From an uncultured Opitutia bacterium (GTDB taxonomy: Bacteria; Verrucomicrobiota; Verrucomicrobiia; Opitutales; Opitutaceae): a DNA stretch of 44,128 nt. The DNA lies in contig CAIPAH010000012.1 in the NCBI GenBank assembly GCA_903862955.1, forward strand, positions 1-44,128, read 5' to 3'. The position numbers were made by a program, and so were the translations under genes. A model generated the notes under the pieces. It was given only the letters and a program-made list of their open reading frames with translations, was not told the origin of the DNA and ran no database searches. Of this stretch, positions 154 through 20,815 are shown piece by piece (positions within the stretch are counted from its first letter, which is position 1; each line of letters begins with the position of its first letter).

Positions 154-2505
154 GTGGCTGCACCTCCGTCCGTTTCGCTCACCGGCGTCCTCGAGCGCAT
201 CATCTTTTTCAACGAGGAAAACCATTACACCATCGCGGAATTCCGGCCCGATGCGGCCAGTCCCAAGGACGCCGAGGCCAAGGTCACGATCGTCGGCGCC
301 CTGCCGGGCGTGGAATGCGGCGAAACCCTTCACCTCTCCGGCGAGTGGACCAAGCACGCGCAGCATGGCGCGCAGTTCAAGGTCACCGGTTTCAAGTCGG
401 AGCTCCCCGCTTCCGTCTACGGCATCCGCAAATACCTCGGCAGCGGCCTCGTGCCCGGCATCGGCAAGGTCTACGCCAACAAGATCGTCGACGCGTTCGG
501 CACCGACACGTTCCGCGTGCTGAGCGAGGAGTCTGGCCGGCTGCGCGATGTCGAGGGCATCGGCCGGAAGCGCGCCACGTCGATCAAGCAGGCGTGGGAC
601 GAAAAACGCACCGAGCGAGAACTCTACATTTTCCTCCAAACTTACGGTGTCACGCCCTCGCAGTGTGTGAAGCTCGTCCGCCACTTCGGCCCGCAGGCCA
701 AGCAGGTCCTGATCAACGAACCCTATCGCGTCGCCCGCGAGATTGACGGCATTGGCTTCAAGACCGCCGATCGCATCGCGATCAATCTCGGCTTCGCCAA
801 CGACGCCCCGCCGCGGCTCGACGCCGGCCTCATCTACGCGCTCGAGACGCTGCAGGAGGAGGGCCACACCGCGTTCACCGAGGCCGGCCTTGTCGAATAC
901 TCGTCCAACCAGCTCGAGACCGACTCCAAGCTCGTCGAGGCGCGCATCACCGCGCTGGTCGAATCCAAGGCGCTGATCCGCCATCTCCCCGCCGGCGTGG
1001 CCAATCCCCTGCCTGGCTCTGCCTTGCTGCAGCTTCCGCTCAACGATCGCGCCGAGCAGAAGATCGCCGACGTGGTGCGGCGGCTCAATCGCGTCGGCAG
1101 CGGCCTCCCGCCGATCAAGGCTGAGGCCGCCGTGAAGTGGGCGGAGGACAAGGCCGGCTTCACCTTTCACGAGCTGCAGCGCACCGCGGTGCGCCACGCG
1201 CTCACGCACAAGTTCACGATCCTCACCGGCGGACCCGGCACGGGCAAAACGACCATCCTCCGCGCGCTCGTCGAGATCCTGAAGGCCAAAAAGGTCCGCG
1301 TGCACCTCGCCGCGCCCACCGGCCGCGCCGCCCAGCGCCTCGCGGAGACAACCGGCGGCTTCGCTTCGACCATCCACCGCCTGCTGAAGTTCGACCCGGC
1401 CGGCGGCGGTTTCACGACCAACGAGTCCCAGCCGCTCGCCACGGATTTTCTCGTGGTGGACGAGGCCTCCATGCTCGACGCCCGCCTCGCGTCCGCGCTG
1501 CTGCAGGCCGTCCCCGCCAAGGCGCACCTACTCCTGGTCGGCGACACCGACCAACTCCCCAGCGTCGGCGCCGGCAACGTGCTGAAAGATCTCATCGCCG
1601 CGAGCGCGGCGATGGGAGATGGGCGATGGGCCAAAGGCGATGGGTCTTTGTCAGGAAGCAAACCGATTCCAGCTGGAGAATCCGATCAACGCCCATCGCC
1701 CATCGCCTCTCGCCTCTCGCCTCCAATCACGATTCCCGTGACGAGATTGTCCGTCATCTATCGCCAAAAGGAACAGAGCGGCATCGTCACGACGGCGCAC
1801 GCCATCAACGCCGGCGATGCCTCGCTGCCGCCCACGGTGGACGACGTCGCGAAGATCCAGGCGTGGAGCGACCTGACGTTTGTCGCCGCCACCGACGCCG
1901 AGGATTGCCTCTGCAAGGTCACCGCCCTCTGCACCGAGTTCATCCCGAAACTCTGGAAGTGGTTCGATCCCGTCACGGACGTGCAGGTGCTGGCGCCGAT
2001 GCACAAGGGCGTCGCCGGGGTGGCCAACCTCAACGCCACGCTGCAGGCCGCCCTCAATCCGCACGCGCGCGGCCTGCGCGGGTTAACCGCGGAATACCGG
2101 CCGGGCGACAAGGTCATCCAGCTGCGGAACAACTACGACAAGAACCTCTTCAACGGCGACATCGGGACGGTGACCGCGATCGACGCCACCGCCGGGACGC
2201 TCGAGGCGAAATTCGACGGCGAGCGGCACAACTTCGATCGCGGTGAGTTCGGCGACCTCGCGCTCGCCTACGCCATCAGCATCCACAAGTCGCAGGGCAG
2301 CGAGTATCCCGTCGTCATCATCCCGCTGCTCAAGGGTCATTTCATGATGCTGCAGCGCAACCTGCTCTACACCGCGATCACGCGCGGGCGGAAGAAGGTT
2401 CTCATCGTGGGCGAACCCGCCGCCTACGCCATGGCCGTCCGCAACAGCGAGTCGAAGCAGCGCATCACCCATCTCCAGCAGAAGATCGCGGCCACGACGG
2501 CTTGA
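154..2505 (+). CDS. recD2: RecD2-type ATP-dependent DNA helicase
   Basis: This is a 5'-3' superfamily 1B DNA helicase of the RecD2/RecD-like type, which acts on DNA repair and recombination without RecBC. The N-terminal part has an OB-like region and helix-hairpin-helix motifs (VEGIGRKRA, IDGIGFKTADRIA). The helicase core has Walker A GGPGTGKTT (about residue 359), Walker B VVDEASM (about 434), motif III GDTDQLPSVGAGNVL, and the C-terminal motif SIHKSQGSEYPVV (about 708). The chosen start is GTG at 154, the first in-frame start before SLTGVLERI. The odd feature is about 40 extra residues (486-525) between motif III and the following RLSVIYRQ motif, encoded by a palindromic GGGCGATGGG/CCCATCGCCC repeat (1609-1724) that keeps the frame open. 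The gene ends 15 bp from the convergent TonB receptor gene. Confidence 0.93.
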   Translation: MAAPPSVSLTGVLERIIFFNEENHYTIAEFRPDAASPKDAEAKVTIVGALPGVECGETLHLSGEWTKHAQHGAQFKVTGFKSELPASVYGIRKYLGSGLVPGIGKVYANKIVDAFGTDTFRVLSEESGRLRDVEGIGRKRATSIKQAWDEKRTERELYIFLQTYGVTPSQCVKLVRHFGPQAKQVLINEPYRVAREIDGIGFKTADRIAINLGFANDAPPRLDAGLIYALETLQEEGHTAFTEAGLVEYSSNQLETDSKLVEARITALVESKALIRHLPAGVANPLPGSALLQLPLNDRAEQKIADVVRRLNRVGSGLPPIKAEAAVKWAEDKAGFTFHELQRTAVRHALTHKFTILTGGPGTGKTTILRALVEILKAKKVRVHLAAPTGRAAQRLAETTGGFASTIHRLLKFDPAGGGFTTNESQPLATDFLVVDEASMLDARLASALLQAVPAKAHLLLVGDTDQLPSVGAGNVLKDLIAASAAMGDGRWAKGDGSLSGSKPIPAGESDQRPSPIASRLSPPITIPVTRLSVIYRQKEQSGIVTTAHAINAGDASLPPTVDDVAKIQAWSDLTFVAATDAEDCLCKVTALCTEFIPKLWKWFDPVTDVQVLAPMHKGVAGVANLNATLQAALNPHARGLRGLTAEYRPGDKVIQLRNNYDKNLFNGDIGTVTAIDATAGTLEAKFDGERHNFDRGEFGDLALAYAISIHKSQGSEYPVVIIPLLKGHFMMLQRNLLYTAITRGRKKVLIVGEPAAYAMAVRNSESKQRITHLQQKIAATTA
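1609..1724. repeat. Palindromic GATGGG repeat inserted in frame in recD2
   Basis: The left arm at 1609-1630 consists of GCGATGGGAGATGGGCGATG-type units and the right arm at 1691-1724 of the complementary CCCATCGCCCATCGCC followed by CTCGCCT units. The two arms could fold into a long hairpin. The element lies exactly where RecD2 proteins normally pass directly from GNVLxDLI to the RLxxIxRQ motif, and it encodes a Gly/Ser/Pro-rich linker. Confidence 0.8.
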
Positions 2506-8142: not shown

Positions 8143-8772
8143 TCAGCCCAATTGCTGCTGCAGCTTCGCCACCTCGGCCTTGAGCAGCTTCGTCAGCCGG
8201 TGGCTGATGACATAGACCGAGGCCGGGTTGACCTTCAGGTGCGAGGCCACCTTCAGCACCGGCCACTGCTGACGCACGTAGAGTTCGAATACCTGGAAGT
8301 GTTGCGCCTTCACCTGCCGCGCCAGCCGCTCGATCCCCGCGGCCAGCAGGTGCTCCTGCCACTCGCGGTCCCATTCGTCTTCTTCCTCCTCCGGGCTCGG
8401 CACGCGCTCGATCGTGGCGGTGCGCGGACCCGCGTCGGCGCTCGGCACCGAGGGCGGCTTGATGGGCACGCGGCCGTTGCTCTCGAATCGGTCGGCAATC
8501 CGCCAGTGTGTGAGCTTCATCAGCCAGCCGCGGAACGAGCCACGCTCGGGGTTGAGGTCGAATTCTGAGATCGTCTCGGCCACGCGCTTGAACACGTCCT
8601 GCGCCACATCCTCGGCGTCGGCATGCGACAGGCCGGAGCGCCGCGCCCGCCCGTAAATCAGCCGCCGATACAGCCGGTGAAATTCCTCCCAGCTCGCCGG
8701 ATCCGACGATTGTTGCACCCGGAAAAGCAGCGTCGGCCGCGTGCGCAAGGTGTCTCCGGGATGCTTGCTCAT
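8143..8772 (-). CDS. ECF-type RNA polymerase sigma factor
   Basis: A 209-residue sigma-70 family protein of the ECF type. Region 2 is visible as EFHRLYRRLIYGRARR, then HADAEDVAQDVFKRVAE and GSFRGWLMKLTHWRIADRF, with the acidic DAED segment preserved. A long acidic linker follows (PSPEEEEDEWDREWQEH), then a region 4 helix-turn-helix (VFELYVRQQWPVLKVASHLKVNPASVYVISHR, here split by function: recognition helix PASVYVISHRL). I chose ATG 8772 over a TTG three codons upstream. It is the first gene of the sigma, kinase and receptor run, and no anti-sigma factor gene is seen beside it. The kinase downstream is the likely regulator, as known for kinase-linked ECF groups (family knowledge). Confidence 0.88.
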   Translation of the reverse strand: MSKHPGDTLRTRPTLLFRVQQSSDPASWEEFHRLYRRLIYGRARRSGLSHADAEDVAQDVFKRVAETISEFDLNPERGSFRGWLMKLTHWRIADRFESNGRVPIKPPSVPSADAGPRTATIERVPSPEEEEDEWDREWQEHLLAAGIERLARQVKAQHFQVFELYVRQQWPVLKVASHLKVNPASVYVISHRLTKLLKAEVAKLQQQLG

Positions 8773-8887
8773 GGTAATCAAGCCTTTGCGTCAGCGCTTC
8801 GGCCTCGGCCAGTTGTCGCAGGAAGCCGCCCCAAAATAAATCTCATTTTTTTGAAAGAACCAGGTGGGCGCGCGGGTGAAGCGCCCC

Positions 8888-18134: not shown

Positions 18135-18216
18135 GGTAGGGAGTGAGGCCCATCCCAAAACCAATCCCCGGCGAATCGAGCGGCGTGGTCCGCCCGGTGG
18201 CGCTAACCGCGCCTGC

Positions 18217-18306
18217 TGTTTCCTTCGTCGGCATGATCCGTTTCAGGTTCGAAGGGTCGAGCAGCCGGTCGCGCCGCAATCTCAGCCCTCCGCGGAGGAC
18301 ACCCCT
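18217..18306 (-). promoter_or_regulatory. TPP (thiamin pyrophosphate) riboswitch
   Basis: Read on the minus strand, the leader contains GGGGTGTCC, then GGCTGAGA, then GACCCTTCGAACCTGA, then ATGCCGACGAAGGAAA, in the order and spacing of the THI-box aptamer. The aptamer ends 82 bp before the receptor ATG. A GC-rich stretch between them (GCGCGGTTAGCGCC and GGGCGGACC) could form the expression platform. No T-run follows, which favours control of translation over termination. Confidence 0.93.
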
Positions 18307-18385
18307 ACAGGCAAGACCCGTGAAAGCGCCCCGCCGTCCGCGGCGCAAGCCAATCTTTCCCATCCGCGACGCACCTCGAACCCCT

Positions 18386-18490
18386 AAAACACAAGAGCCG
18401 CCCTTTCGGGCGGCTCCCTGACCTAACACCAAACAAACCTTAGAACTTAACTACAAACACTCACCGTCTTACCAGGACGATGTTGACTAC
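18386..18490 (-). ncRNA. Tandem small RNA unit A
   Basis: A predicted transcript of about 105 nt. On the minus strand it runs from GTGTAGTCA (18484-18492) through GTTTGTAGTT (18449-18458) and a 21-base block (18419-18439, ending GTGTTAGGTCA) to a 9-bp terminator stem GAGCCGCCC/GGGCGGCTC with a GAAA loop (18395-18416) and a TTGTGTTTT tail. All conserved blocks recur in unit B. It contains no ATG-initiated ORF. Confidence 0.7.
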
Positions 18491-18495
18491 ACGGG

Positions 18496-18525
18496 GATAG
18501 ATGCGCCGTTCGACGAAACGTTCAA
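18496..18525 (-). promoter_or_regulatory. Predicted promoter of small RNA unit A
   Basis: On the minus strand TTGAAC (18520-18525) and TCTATC (18496-18501) are separated by 18 bp. The same two boxes with the same 18-bp spacing precede unit B although the spacer sequence differs, which suggests a -35/-10 pair. Confidence 0.55.
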
Positions 18526-18564
18526 AAAATGTTTTCCCCAAAAATCCCGCCCCACCGACGCCGG

Positions 18565-18650
18565 AAACACAAGAGCCGCTCCCTTGCGGGAGCGGCTCGA
18601 GTGACCTAACACCAAGCAAACCGTAAGAACTACAAACAATCTCTGACTAC
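18565..18650 (-). ncRNA. Tandem small RNA unit B
   Basis: A predicted transcript of about 86 nt, paralogous to unit A. It shares GTGTAGTCA (18644-18652), GTTTGTAGTT (18628-18637) and the 21-base block (18602-18622, one difference). Its terminator stem is 11 bp, GAGCCGCTCCC/GGGAGCGGCTC with a GCAA loop (18573-18598), and the tail is TTGTGTTT. Stem bases differ from unit A but stay paired, and both loops are GNRA tetraloops on the minus strand, which fixes the orientation. Confidence 0.7.
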
Positions 18651-18655
18651 ACTCA

Positions 18656-18685
18656 GATAGACGGGGCCGATGCCGAAATGCTCAA
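18656..18685 (-). promoter_or_regulatory. Predicted promoter of small RNA unit B
   Basis: On the minus strand TTGAGC (18680-18685) and TCTATC (18656-18661) are separated by 18 bp, matching the arrangement before unit A. A T-rich stretch precedes the -35 box in both units. The remaining gap to 18820 is AT-rich (for example TTTTAATTAATTAC near 18733) and probably also holds the promoter of the next plus-strand gene. Confidence 0.55.
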
Positions 18686-18820
18686 AAAAAGATCGGGGAA
18701 ATTGTGAACAAGTATCTCATGATGTAACTCTCTTTTAATTAATTACTAGCGTGTTGTGAATGACTTGGGGTGGACACCCCGGGAGGACAGGAAGAGGGCT
18801 GTTTCGACCCCTCTTTTCCC

Positions 18821-19564
18821 ATGGAAAACTCCTCCACCCGTCCCCACCTGTTCGGCCTCCTCGCAGGCCTGTTTCTCGCCGCCGGCCTCTGCTTTGCCTC
18901 CATCGTCTTCACGCGCACGTGGACCCGCCTCCACGAGTCCCAAGTCATCGAAGTGACCGGCTCCGCGCGAAAAAATGTCGAGTCCGACCTCGTGGTCTGG
19001 CGCGCCAGCTTCGCCGTCGAGGACGAGTCCCTGCTCAGCGCGCACACGAAGCTCAAGGCCGACCTCGCCACCGTGTCCTCCTTCTTGCGCGCCAAGGGCG
19101 TGAAAGATTTTACGCTCCTGCCCCTGCAAATCCGCGAAATCACCGCGCGCACGAAAACCGACGGTGAGGAGACGGTCTCGAAACGCATCGGGTACCGCCT
19201 CACGCAACGCATCGAGATCCAATCGACCGACATCGCGCCCACCACCCGCCTCGGCGCGGAGTCCGCTGCGCTGCTGGAACAGGGCATCGCCCTCGTGTCC
19301 GAGGGACTCGACTTCATCTACACCAAGGCCAGTGAAGCCAAGGTCGAGATGATGGCCGAGGCGACCCGCGACGCCCGCGCCCGCGCCGAACAGATCGCCC
19401 GCCAGGGCGGCCGCCGGCTCAAGGAGCTGCGCACCGCGCGCATGGGCGTCGTGCAGATCAACCCGCTCTATTCCAGCGCGACGAGCTGGGAGGGAAACAA
19501 CGACAACTCGTCGTTCGAAAAAACCATCATGACCACCGTCAGCGCGACCTTCTCGCTGGACTGA
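18821..19564 (+). CDS. SIMPL domain (DUF541) protein
   Basis: A 247-residue protein with one N-terminal membrane anchor (LFGLLAGLFLAAGLCFASIVF) and a SIMPL/DUF541 domain: VIEVTGSARKNVESDLVVWRA, with the typical 'G.a...v..D.a.....v' start, then KGVKDFTLLPLQI, and a C-terminal RARAEQIARQGGRRLKEL. The domain forms periplasmic oligomers in characterised relatives; its role is unclear. ATG 18821 begins just before the anchor. Confidence 0.88.
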   Translation: MENSSTRPHLFGLLAGLFLAAGLCFASIVFTRTWTRLHESQVIEVTGSARKNVESDLVVWRASFAVEDESLLSAHTKLKADLATVSSFLRAKGVKDFTLLPLQIREITARTKTDGEETVSKRIGYRLTQRIEIQSTDIAPTTRLGAESAALLEQGIALVSEGLDFIYTKASEAKVEMMAEATRDARARAEQIARQGGRRLKELRTARMGVVQINPLYSSATSWEGNNDNSSFEKTIMTTVSATFSLD

Positions 19565-19591: not shown

Positions 19592-20815
19592 TCACTCACG
19601 CCCGGCACCCGGAATCGGGTGCGCGTGCGGATGTGCGTGCGGCGGGCTCGGCACGTCGGCCGGCGTCTTGTTCGGGACCGGCGTGCTCTTGAGCGGGTAA
19701 ACGAACCGCTGGCCCTCGTAATTGCGGAAAATCACCTCGTCGTCCGTGACACTCTCCACGTAGTCCGGGTTGATCGGCACCTTGCCGCCGCCACCCGGGG
19801 CGTCGATGACGTATTGCGGCACCGCATAACCCGTCGTGTGGCCGCGCAGCGCGCGGATGATCTCAATGCCCTTCTGGACGCTCACCTTGAAGTGCGCGCC
19901 GCCGGTGATGAGGTCCATCTGGTAAAGGTAGTAGGGCCGCACGCGCATCCGCAGCAGGCGGTGCACAAGTGCCTTCATCACGTCGGCATCGTCGTTCACG
20001 CCCTTGAGCAGCACGCTCTGGTTGCCCAGCGGCACGCCCGCAAACGACAGCCGCTCGCAGGCCGCCTTGAGCTCCGCCGTGCACTCCTTCGGGTGGTTCA
20101 CGTGGATGCTCATCCAGATCGGGCCGTATTTCTTAAAAACTTCGCACAGCTCCGGCGTGATCCGCTGCGGCAGGAAAACCGGGATGCGCGAGCCGATGCG
20201 GATGAACTCCACGTGCTTGATCGCCCGGAGCCGGCTCAGCAGGTGCTCGAGTTTCTTGTCCGAGAGCAGCAGCGGGTCGCCGCCCGAGAGCAGCACGTCC
20301 CGCACTTCGGGATGCCCCTCGATGTAGCGCAGCGCCTGCTCGTATTCGGGGTGAAAATTGTAGTCCTGCGCGTTCGAAACGAGCCGGCTGCGGGTGCAGT
20401 AGCGGCAATACGACGCGCAACGATCCGTCACCAGGAACAACACGCGATCGGGATAACGATGCACCAGGCCCGGCACCGGCGAATGTTCGTCCTCGCCCAG
20501 CGAATCCAGCTGCTCTTCCACCGACAGCTGCATCTCGCCCGCCCGGGGAATGACCTGCAGCCGGAGGGGGCAGTTCGGGTCGTTGCGGTCGATCAGGTTA
20601 AAGAAGTACGGGGTGATCGCGAGCGAGAGCTTGTGGTCGGCAAAATAGCACCCGGCTTTCTCGTCCGGCGTCAGCGTCATGAACTGCTCCAGCTGGGCGA
20701 CGCTCGTGATGCGATTCTTCAGCTGCCAGGTCCAGTCCTGCCACTCGCTCGCCGGCACGTGCGACCACAGGCCTTGCCCTTCGAACCAGGCGGAGCGGTC
20801 TTCGGTGTAGGGCAT
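19592..20815 (-). CDS. kamA: Lysine 2,3-aminomutase (KamA family radical SAM enzyme)
   Basis: A 407-residue PLP-dependent radical SAM enzyme that converts L-lysine to L-beta-lysine. The [4Fe-4S]/SAM motif is CASYCRYC (C133, C137, C140). The PLP lysine is K345 in APGGGGKVPINP, and the two substrate-binding Asp residues of clostridial lysine 2,3-aminomutase fall at D301 (YQMDL) and D338 (VIDAPGG), all shifted by eight positions. This points to a true lysine aminomutase more than to an EF-P modifying EpmB. The C terminus carries a His-rich tail (PPHAHPHAHPIPG). It is transcribed divergently from carA. No beta-lysine acetyltransferase gene is next to it. Confidence 0.92.
   Translation of the reverse strand: MPYTEDRSAWFEGQGLWSHVPASEWQDWTWQLKNRITSVAQLEQFMTLTPDEKAGCYFADHKLSLAITPYFFNLIDRNDPNCPLRLQVIPRAGEMQLSVEEQLDSLGEDEHSPVPGLVHRYPDRVLFLVTDRCASYCRYCTRSRLVSNAQDYNFHPEYEQALRYIEGHPEVRDVLLSGGDPLLLSDKKLEHLLSRLRAIKHVEFIRIGSRIPVFLPQRITPELCEVFKKYGPIWMSIHVNHPKECTAELKAACERLSFAGVPLGNQSVLLKGVNDDADVMKALVHRLLRMRVRPYYLYQMDLITGGAHFKVSVQKGIEIIRALRGHTTGYAVPQYVIDAPGGGGKVPINPDYVESVTDDEVIFRNYEGQRFVYPLKSTPVPNKTPADVPSPPHAHPHAHPIPGAGRE

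Follow-up and report, generated by a model that had tools for sequence, protein, structure and literature searches.

The two tandem units read from the minus strand of the window (the whole stretch of 44,128 nucleotides analysed here) at positions 18685-18565 (unit 1) and 18525-18387 (unit 2) appear, from their sequence, to be siblings in a lineage-specific small-RNA family that is confined to the Opitutaceae within the genomes searched. We hold with moderate confidence that they represent a multicopy, independently transcribed regulatory RNA with an ECF-like promoter, acting in trans via a G/U-rich linear core. The family, which has no match in Rfam and no description in the literature searched, is a new one and belongs to a kind of RNA that is already known. 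What we say of the family, its promoter and spacing, its helices, its synteny and its distribution rests on sequence comparison. We infer that each unit is transcribed from its own ECF-like promoter, read by an ECF sigma factor, and that each transcript terminates at a hairpin of its own. The RNA would then expose a long G/U-rich linear stretch that hardly varies and that, in most of the members sampled, is flanked by two covarying hairpins; this stretch most likely pairs in trans, without Hfq, with A/C-rich parts of several mRNAs. In this way the RNA would probably regulate other genes, and it probably serves as the noncoding branch of a stress response. An earlier note on this DNA had proposed two independently transcribed paralogous small RNAs, and this remains the best reading of the sequences, with the promoter spacing shared by 137 of 149 homologous units and both partners changed at 18 of 21 stem pairs.

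All elements that had been described for the two units, i.e. the TTGARC-18-TCTATC promoter, the shared blocks and the GNRA-capped terminator, are present in both (Table 1). The 21-base block of unit 2, GGTTTGTTTGGTGTTAGGTCA, differs from that of unit 1, GGTTTGCTTGGTGTTAGGTCA, at one position, and in both units it ends with GTGTTAGGTCA. The single offset of 178 bp given earlier has to be replaced by three values, 160 between the promoters, 183 between the cores and 180 between the terminator stems, which are unequal because unit 2 possesses an extra 5' hairpin, absent from unit 1. Both terminators do have the tails described, but these are only moderately U-rich (TTGTGTTT). Similarly, the statement that neither unit contains an ORF with a start codon holds for ATG, which is absent from both RNAs, although unit 2 is overlapped by a TTG-started frame of the mechanical kind. 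The 5' end of the unit 1 RNA is predicted at or adjoining the conserved G at 18652. With the covariance model described below, unit 1 scores 94.8 bits (E 3.8e-20; a unit of this locus belongs to the model) and unit 2 scores 86.6 bits (E 3.8e-18; unit 2 is itself one of the model's 53 rows), and the folding z-scores are -3.45 and -2.51, respectively. No tRNA or tmRNA was found in the window.

Table 1. Features of the two putative small-RNA units and of their surroundings (window positions)
Feature	Position	Strand	Sequence or remark
Unit 1 promoter boxes	TTGAGC 18685-18680; TCTATC 18661-18656	minus	18 bases between the boxes; from sequence
Unit 1 promoter	18656-18685	minus	TTGAGCATTT, 12 bases, CGTCTATC; score 18/18
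Unit 1 conserved boxes	18652-18644; 18637-18628; 18622-18602	minus	GTGTAGTCA; GTTTGTAGTT; GGTTTGCTTGGTGTTAGGTCA
Unit 1 linear core	18602-18637	minus	GTTTGTAGTTCTTAC + GGTTTGCTTGGTGTTAGGTCA
Unit 1 terminator stem	18598-18573	minus	GAGCCGCTCCC-GCAA-GGGAGCGGCTC
Unit 1 terminator, full	18568-18603	minus	11-pair stem, GCAA loop, outer CAC/GTG pairs
Unit 1 small RNA (predicted)	18565-18652	minus	about 86-88 nt, without 5' hairpin
Unit 2 promoter boxes	TTGAAC 18525-18520; TCTATC 18501-18496	minus	18 bases between the boxes; from sequence
Unit 2 promoter	18496-18525	minus	TTGAACGTTT, 12 bases, CATCTATC
Unit 2 conserved boxes	18492-18484; 18458-18449; 18439-18419	minus	GTGTAGTCA; GTTTGTAGTT; GGTTTGTTTGGTGTTAGGTCA
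Unit 2 5' hairpin (helix 1)	18462-18482	minus	CATCGTCCTGGTAAGACGGTG; absent from unit 1
Unit 2 linear core	18419-18458	minus	4-base insertion after GTTTGTAGTT
Unit 2 terminator	18393-18418	minus	GAAA-capped stem
Unit 2 small RNA (predicted)	18387-18492	minus	about 105 nt
kamA-like radical-SAM gene (LAM_C)	19592-20815	minus	Pfam; outside the RNA
SIMPL/DUF541 gene	18770-19564	plus	Pfam; between kamA and the RNA
TPP riboswitch	18203-18316	minus	upstream of a TonB-dependent receptor gene
Sigma-70 family gene	8143-8781	minus	10 kb from the RNA

The earlier note recognised no known family in these units, in agreement with the search of Rfam release 15, in which no family came near its cut-off for either unit, whether the gathering cut-off or E values up to 10 were used. 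The best match over the units reached 21 bits versus a gathering score of 50, and the TPP riboswitch is the sole Rfam match in the window at the gathering cut-off. Likewise, no description of such an RNA was found in the titles and abstracts of the literature on small RNAs of Opitutaceae and Verrucomicrobia (a search whose scope left aside preprints and most subscription papers). For the whole Planctomycetes-Verrucomicrobia-Chlamydiae group, eight distinct annotated small RNAs are given in the table of a review (PMC9029176). The Opitutaceae, for which we found no described small RNA in that literature, gain a well-supported and easily testable candidate.

At the level of DNA, a search of 95 genomes (the source genome and its relatives) returned strong matches in the source genome, in all 11 other genomes of its genus and across many further genera of Opitutaceae, and no match at E <= 0.001 in the rest of the order. 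An exact search for the core in the genome collection found at least 118 stretches; among the matches listed (80), the carriers are assigned to Opitutaceae or its genera, to Opitutae, Opitutia or Opitutales, or to Verrucomicrobia, Verrucomicrobiota or Verrucomicrobiia without a family, and a record of Ereboglobus (Opitutaceae; L109) is one of the core carriers. The covariance-model search that had been proposed was carried out with a model (R1) built from 53 units, and it recovered the family: the model matched 187 of 252 genomes of the Opitutaceae, in 33 of 49 genera. In a sample of 387 genomes from the phylum it matched 30, 28 inside the family and two outside, the latter being marginal (E 0.005 and 0.0096); for searches of many genomes the filters were stricter, and weak matches are lost at these settings. 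Carrying genomes have from one to five matches, at least two in 80 and at least three in 26 of the 187, and in genomes with multiple matches the copies are found in tandem or elsewhere, not all of them in tandem. In the window and 40 further loci, the model found 53 matches.

The structure of the RNA was studied on an alignment of 53 rows (A1), picked from 83 rows of the length typical of the hairpin-bearing class among 115 non-redundant ones, thereby excluding the short members and some rows with a different-looking 5' hairpin. Two helices were drawn by hand on these rows, which leans the counts of covariation towards that structure; the structure proposed by RNAalifold itself missed helix 1, as we think due to the register of the alignment. 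With this structure, 91.9% of the cells pair versus 83.0% in shuffles, both sides change at 18 of the 21 stem pairs (seven of eight in helix 1), and there are 148 double-change cells versus 42.9 in shuffles. None of 500 shuffles reached the real value on any of the five measures used, and sliding the partner by one to three columns reduces the pairing to 41-56%. Both helices thus covary, which points to a conserved structure with compensatory changes, and the remark that the stem bases of the two units differ yet stay paired extends to their homologues.

Helix 1 is variable in sequence and missing from some members, including unit 1 of the window, and in the shortest members the promoter is followed almost immediately by the core. 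The stretch between the helices, on the other hand, is almost invariant and linear, with GTTTGTAGTTCTTACGGTTTGCTTGGTGTTAGGTCA as its commonest form; its conservation in our set of 149 rows is partly circular, because these rows were selected by a motif inside the core. A single helix is predicted within the core itself, and none of its pairs shows changes in both partners. In 123 of the 149 rows, TAGTT precedes the core by no more than about 50 bases. A short subtype of the RNA, whose terminator loop contains AGGGGT where the window units have GNRA loops, was seen at L039, L041, L062, L074, L081, L085, L114, L188 and other loci.

Conservation of the promoter lies outside the selecting motif, although the boxes used for scoring were drawn from the same 149 rows. 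A score of at least 16 out of 18 is reached by 138 of these 149 homologous units and by none of 447 base-shuffled upstream regions; the remaining 11 real rows score 15, a value that 13 of the 447 shuffles attain as well. If the spacing is left free, 137 rows settle on one value. The boxes of these rows have mean pairwise identities of 0.81 and 0.85, and the spacer one of 0.37, in line with the earlier observation that the spacers diverge between boxes whose sequence and distance are preserved. A G is conserved in 130 of the 137 rows, roughly at the expected transcription start. The 14 most diverged or unusual copies, inspected by eye, also keep the promoter boxes. Loss of boxes, spacing and pairing in homologues had been named as evidence that would speak against the proposal; what we find is that they are kept (spacing in 137 of 149 rows, both-side changes at 18 of 21 pairs). 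Each unit is therefore predicted to have its own promoter and its own intrinsic terminator, both conserved in homologues.

The boxes do not form a textbook sigma-70 promoter, because a generic sigma-70 scan found none at the units. Their shape, with TTGA[A/G]CGTTT at -35, CGTCTATC at -10 and 16 bases between AAC/AGC and CGTC, resembles a promoter of ECF sigma factors. According to a review, the triplets recognised by ECF sigma factors are AAC in the -35 and CGT in the -10 region, and the -35 box of SigW is ATTGAAACCTTT (PMC8103513). Among the 137 rows with the commonest spacing, the -10 triplet is CGT in 104, CAT in 31 and AGT in two; the -35 triplet is AGC in 81, AAC in 42, AAT in 13 and ATC in one, so that the AAC hallmark is present in only a minority of 42.

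Nearly all occurrences of the promoter in the DNA scanned accompany this RNA. Of 173 sites with a score of at least 16 in 1.68 Mb of DNA (enriched for RNA loci), 160 are followed by the core, seven by a variant core (L024, L038, L075, L084, two at L186, and L200) and one by a sibling RNA without the core, while five are chance-like; several of the chance-like sites lie inside genes. Only two sites in the window score at least 15, the promoter of unit 1 among them, and a search of the source genome with up to two mismatches returned the two units and one site that is likely due to chance. A search throughout the genus agrees with this, as 20 of 29 promoter matches are RNA genes; the other nine, one of which is a sibling RNA, compare with 14 in a reversed control, and such a scarcity of matches away from the RNA is odd for an ECF regulon.

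Several of the sites encountered in these scans deserve description. The sibling at L231 (from base 1499, plus strand, G007:C23) has the same promoter, a hairpin and TTTGTTTGTAGTTTC, lacks the GGTTTGCTTGGTGTTAGGTCA core, and carries a terminator-like hairpin directly after TTTGTTTGTAGTTTC. At L038 and L075, copies neighbouring the RNA on the upstream side have a similar promoter and a G/U-rich sequence of the GGTGTTTT type in place of the core (AGGTGTTTTAGGTGTTTTGG at L038). At L247 (G003:C209), GAACCTTT-N12-CGTCTAT precedes a run of T and, before it, a hairpin whose loop is AGGGGT, and may represent another small RNA with a related promoter.

The near-exclusive occurrence of the promoter with the RNA in the DNA scanned provides a handle on which of the 16 genes with sigma region 2 in the source genome reads it. 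The sigma-70 family gene of the window is one of the 16. No sigma gene with the same promoter was found, as none of the 16 sigma loci scanned contains a site scoring 17-18; there are four sites with a score of 15-16, in three loci. One of the four, GGGAACAATT-N12-CATCTGAC at L283 (approximately 1374-1403, plus strand), is a related site (GGGAAC...TCTGAC) located a short distance 5' of a sigma region 2 match, and it is a candidate for an autoregulatory ECF promoter of the same spacing. One may go further and envisage a self-contained promoter-RNA module, in which the near-consensus promoter of a dedicated sigma factor or activator would serve almost only the copies of one Hfq-independent RNA; a few copies of this RNA would act as a family-wide stress or growth switch, its 36-base, near-invariant core working by a mechanism not yet described. 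We consider this improbable.

The units sit between the SIMPL/DUF541 gene and the TonB-dependent receptor gene with the TPP riboswitch. The earlier note had placed them just upstream of this receptor gene, which is correct for the window, but the conserved neighbour is a kamA-like gene upstream on the same strand, found in 37 of 41 loci (L192: partial match), and not the receptor. At L189, L194 and L204, the RNA was placed by its match to the covariance model. The loci without kamA are L188, L191, L201 and L205, of which L188 is a second locus in a genome whose other locus does have kamA. The gene is also present in 14 of 15 genomes that were taken from among those of the family without a match to the model, and the promoter is absent from the flanks covered at all 14 of these non-carrier kamA loci (downstream of L294, L297 and L300, the flank covered is only about 0.8-1.0 kb). 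A KamA tree was calculated from 48 rows, comprising 34 of the 41 carrier loci and the 14 non-carriers; the seven carrier loci off the tree lack a full, stop-free match. When the tree is drawn open, all carriers fall into one group of 41 rows (support 91/93), which excludes seven of the 14 non-carriers; of the seven inside, five form one cluster, and L294 and L295 each stand alone beside carriers. The carrier label changes four times on this tree versus 12.4 times in shuffles. A single gain of the RNA with later losses fits this pattern, with reservations on the tree.

Since kamA, the RNA and the receptor gene follow one another on one strand, the RNA could be regarded as a cis-acting leader or attenuator of whichever gene comes next (the riboswitch-bearing TonB receptor gene in the window), or as a product of the 3' end of kamA. 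We find this very unlikely: each copy in the window has its own promoter and terminator, the SIMPL gene was matched between kamA and the RNA in 14 of the 41 loci and, being on the opposite strand, separates the two, and the largest cluster of same-strand downstream genes comprises just 11 of the 41 loci. Tandem copies bearing hairpins are reminiscent of a palindromic element, repetitive or mobile, that has no function as RNA, but carrying genomes have only one to five matches, carriers show a clustered pattern on the kamA tree, and the promoter is conserved along with compensatory changes in the stems; together, the synteny with kamA and the covariation largely refute this reading, which we regard as hardly tenable. 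We give equally little credence to a small peptide encoded in the core. One frame of unit 1 reads FVVLTVCLVLG, and the sole common difference in the core, C/T, would be synonymous in it. However, 59 of the 149 rows have no ATG, GTG or TTG in frame upstream of the core (ATG is found in only 32), in 90 rows the frame remains open to the end of the 84 bases examined, beyond the terminator, and in unit 2 the 4-base insertion places a stop in that frame just before the core.

A different matter is a real, independently transcribed RNA that would act by binding a protein, as a decoy or as part of a ribonucleoprotein, and not by pairing with mRNA. A pairing seed would not need the length and invariance that the linear stretch has (in rows selected by the core motif), Hfq (PF17209) was found in none of 57 genomes of the family and the order (G000-G036 and G061-G080; it was detected in five of 14 control genomes, and a divergent Hfq could escape), and complements of the core were not enriched in four tests for targets. 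Near-perfect complements (up to two mismatches, 12 genomes) number 22 outside the RNA itself, and the control has 30; the mean duplex energy at 290 predicted start regions is -21.5 for the core versus -21.0 for shuffled cores (sd 0.8), by a method that saturates on GC-rich DNA; at 16 TonB receptors, the pairing of the core is matched by 37 of 100 shuffles; and in 444,128 bases there are six exact 10-mers of the core outside the RNA versus 14 for shuffled cores. The scans for imperfect sites covered about 12% of the source genome and the 16 receptor genes. On the other hand, the sole helix predicted in the core lacks both-side changes and so gives no hint of a conserved fold in this part of the RNA. 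We judge protein binding to be rather unlikely and pairing with mRNA the likelier of the two, and we infer either step. The promoter of the RNA also provides a handle on how a bacterium without detected Hfq uses small RNAs.

The preferred reading, a trans-acting RNA that pairs with mRNAs, has several parallels. MicA and RybB of enterobacteria are ECF-dependent small RNAs with an ECF-type promoter and similar pairing regions. Region R1 of GcvB is single-stranded and rich in G and U, and it probably pairs with mRNA sites rich in C and A; the core described here is likewise G/U-rich, but it has no Rfam match and its complementary sites are not enriched. FoxI and FoxJ of Fusobacterium demonstrate that ECF-driven small RNAs exist outside Proteobacteria, and they are among the nearest by function, since their genes have promoters of the ECF type and one genome carries more than one such RNA, with similar pairing regions; however, their pairing region is a C-stretch and not a G/U-rich core, and sequences were compared via Rfam only (PMC11005410). 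The csRNAs of Streptococcus pneumoniae are also several highly similar small RNAs, with their expression under one regulator, but they belong to a different phylum and this regulator is CiaR (PMC4507080; sequences compared via Rfam only). The sibling small RNAs of Neisseria form a comparable regulatory pair, likened here by description (PMC5362039, PMC9973317). As to targets, AACTACAAAC, a perfect 10-base complement of GTTTGTAGTT, is located upstream of the chosen start codon of a TonB receptor (L339, G000:C30:184584); by a rough estimate, chance would produce such a site about once per 25 such sets, and we regard it as a lead only.
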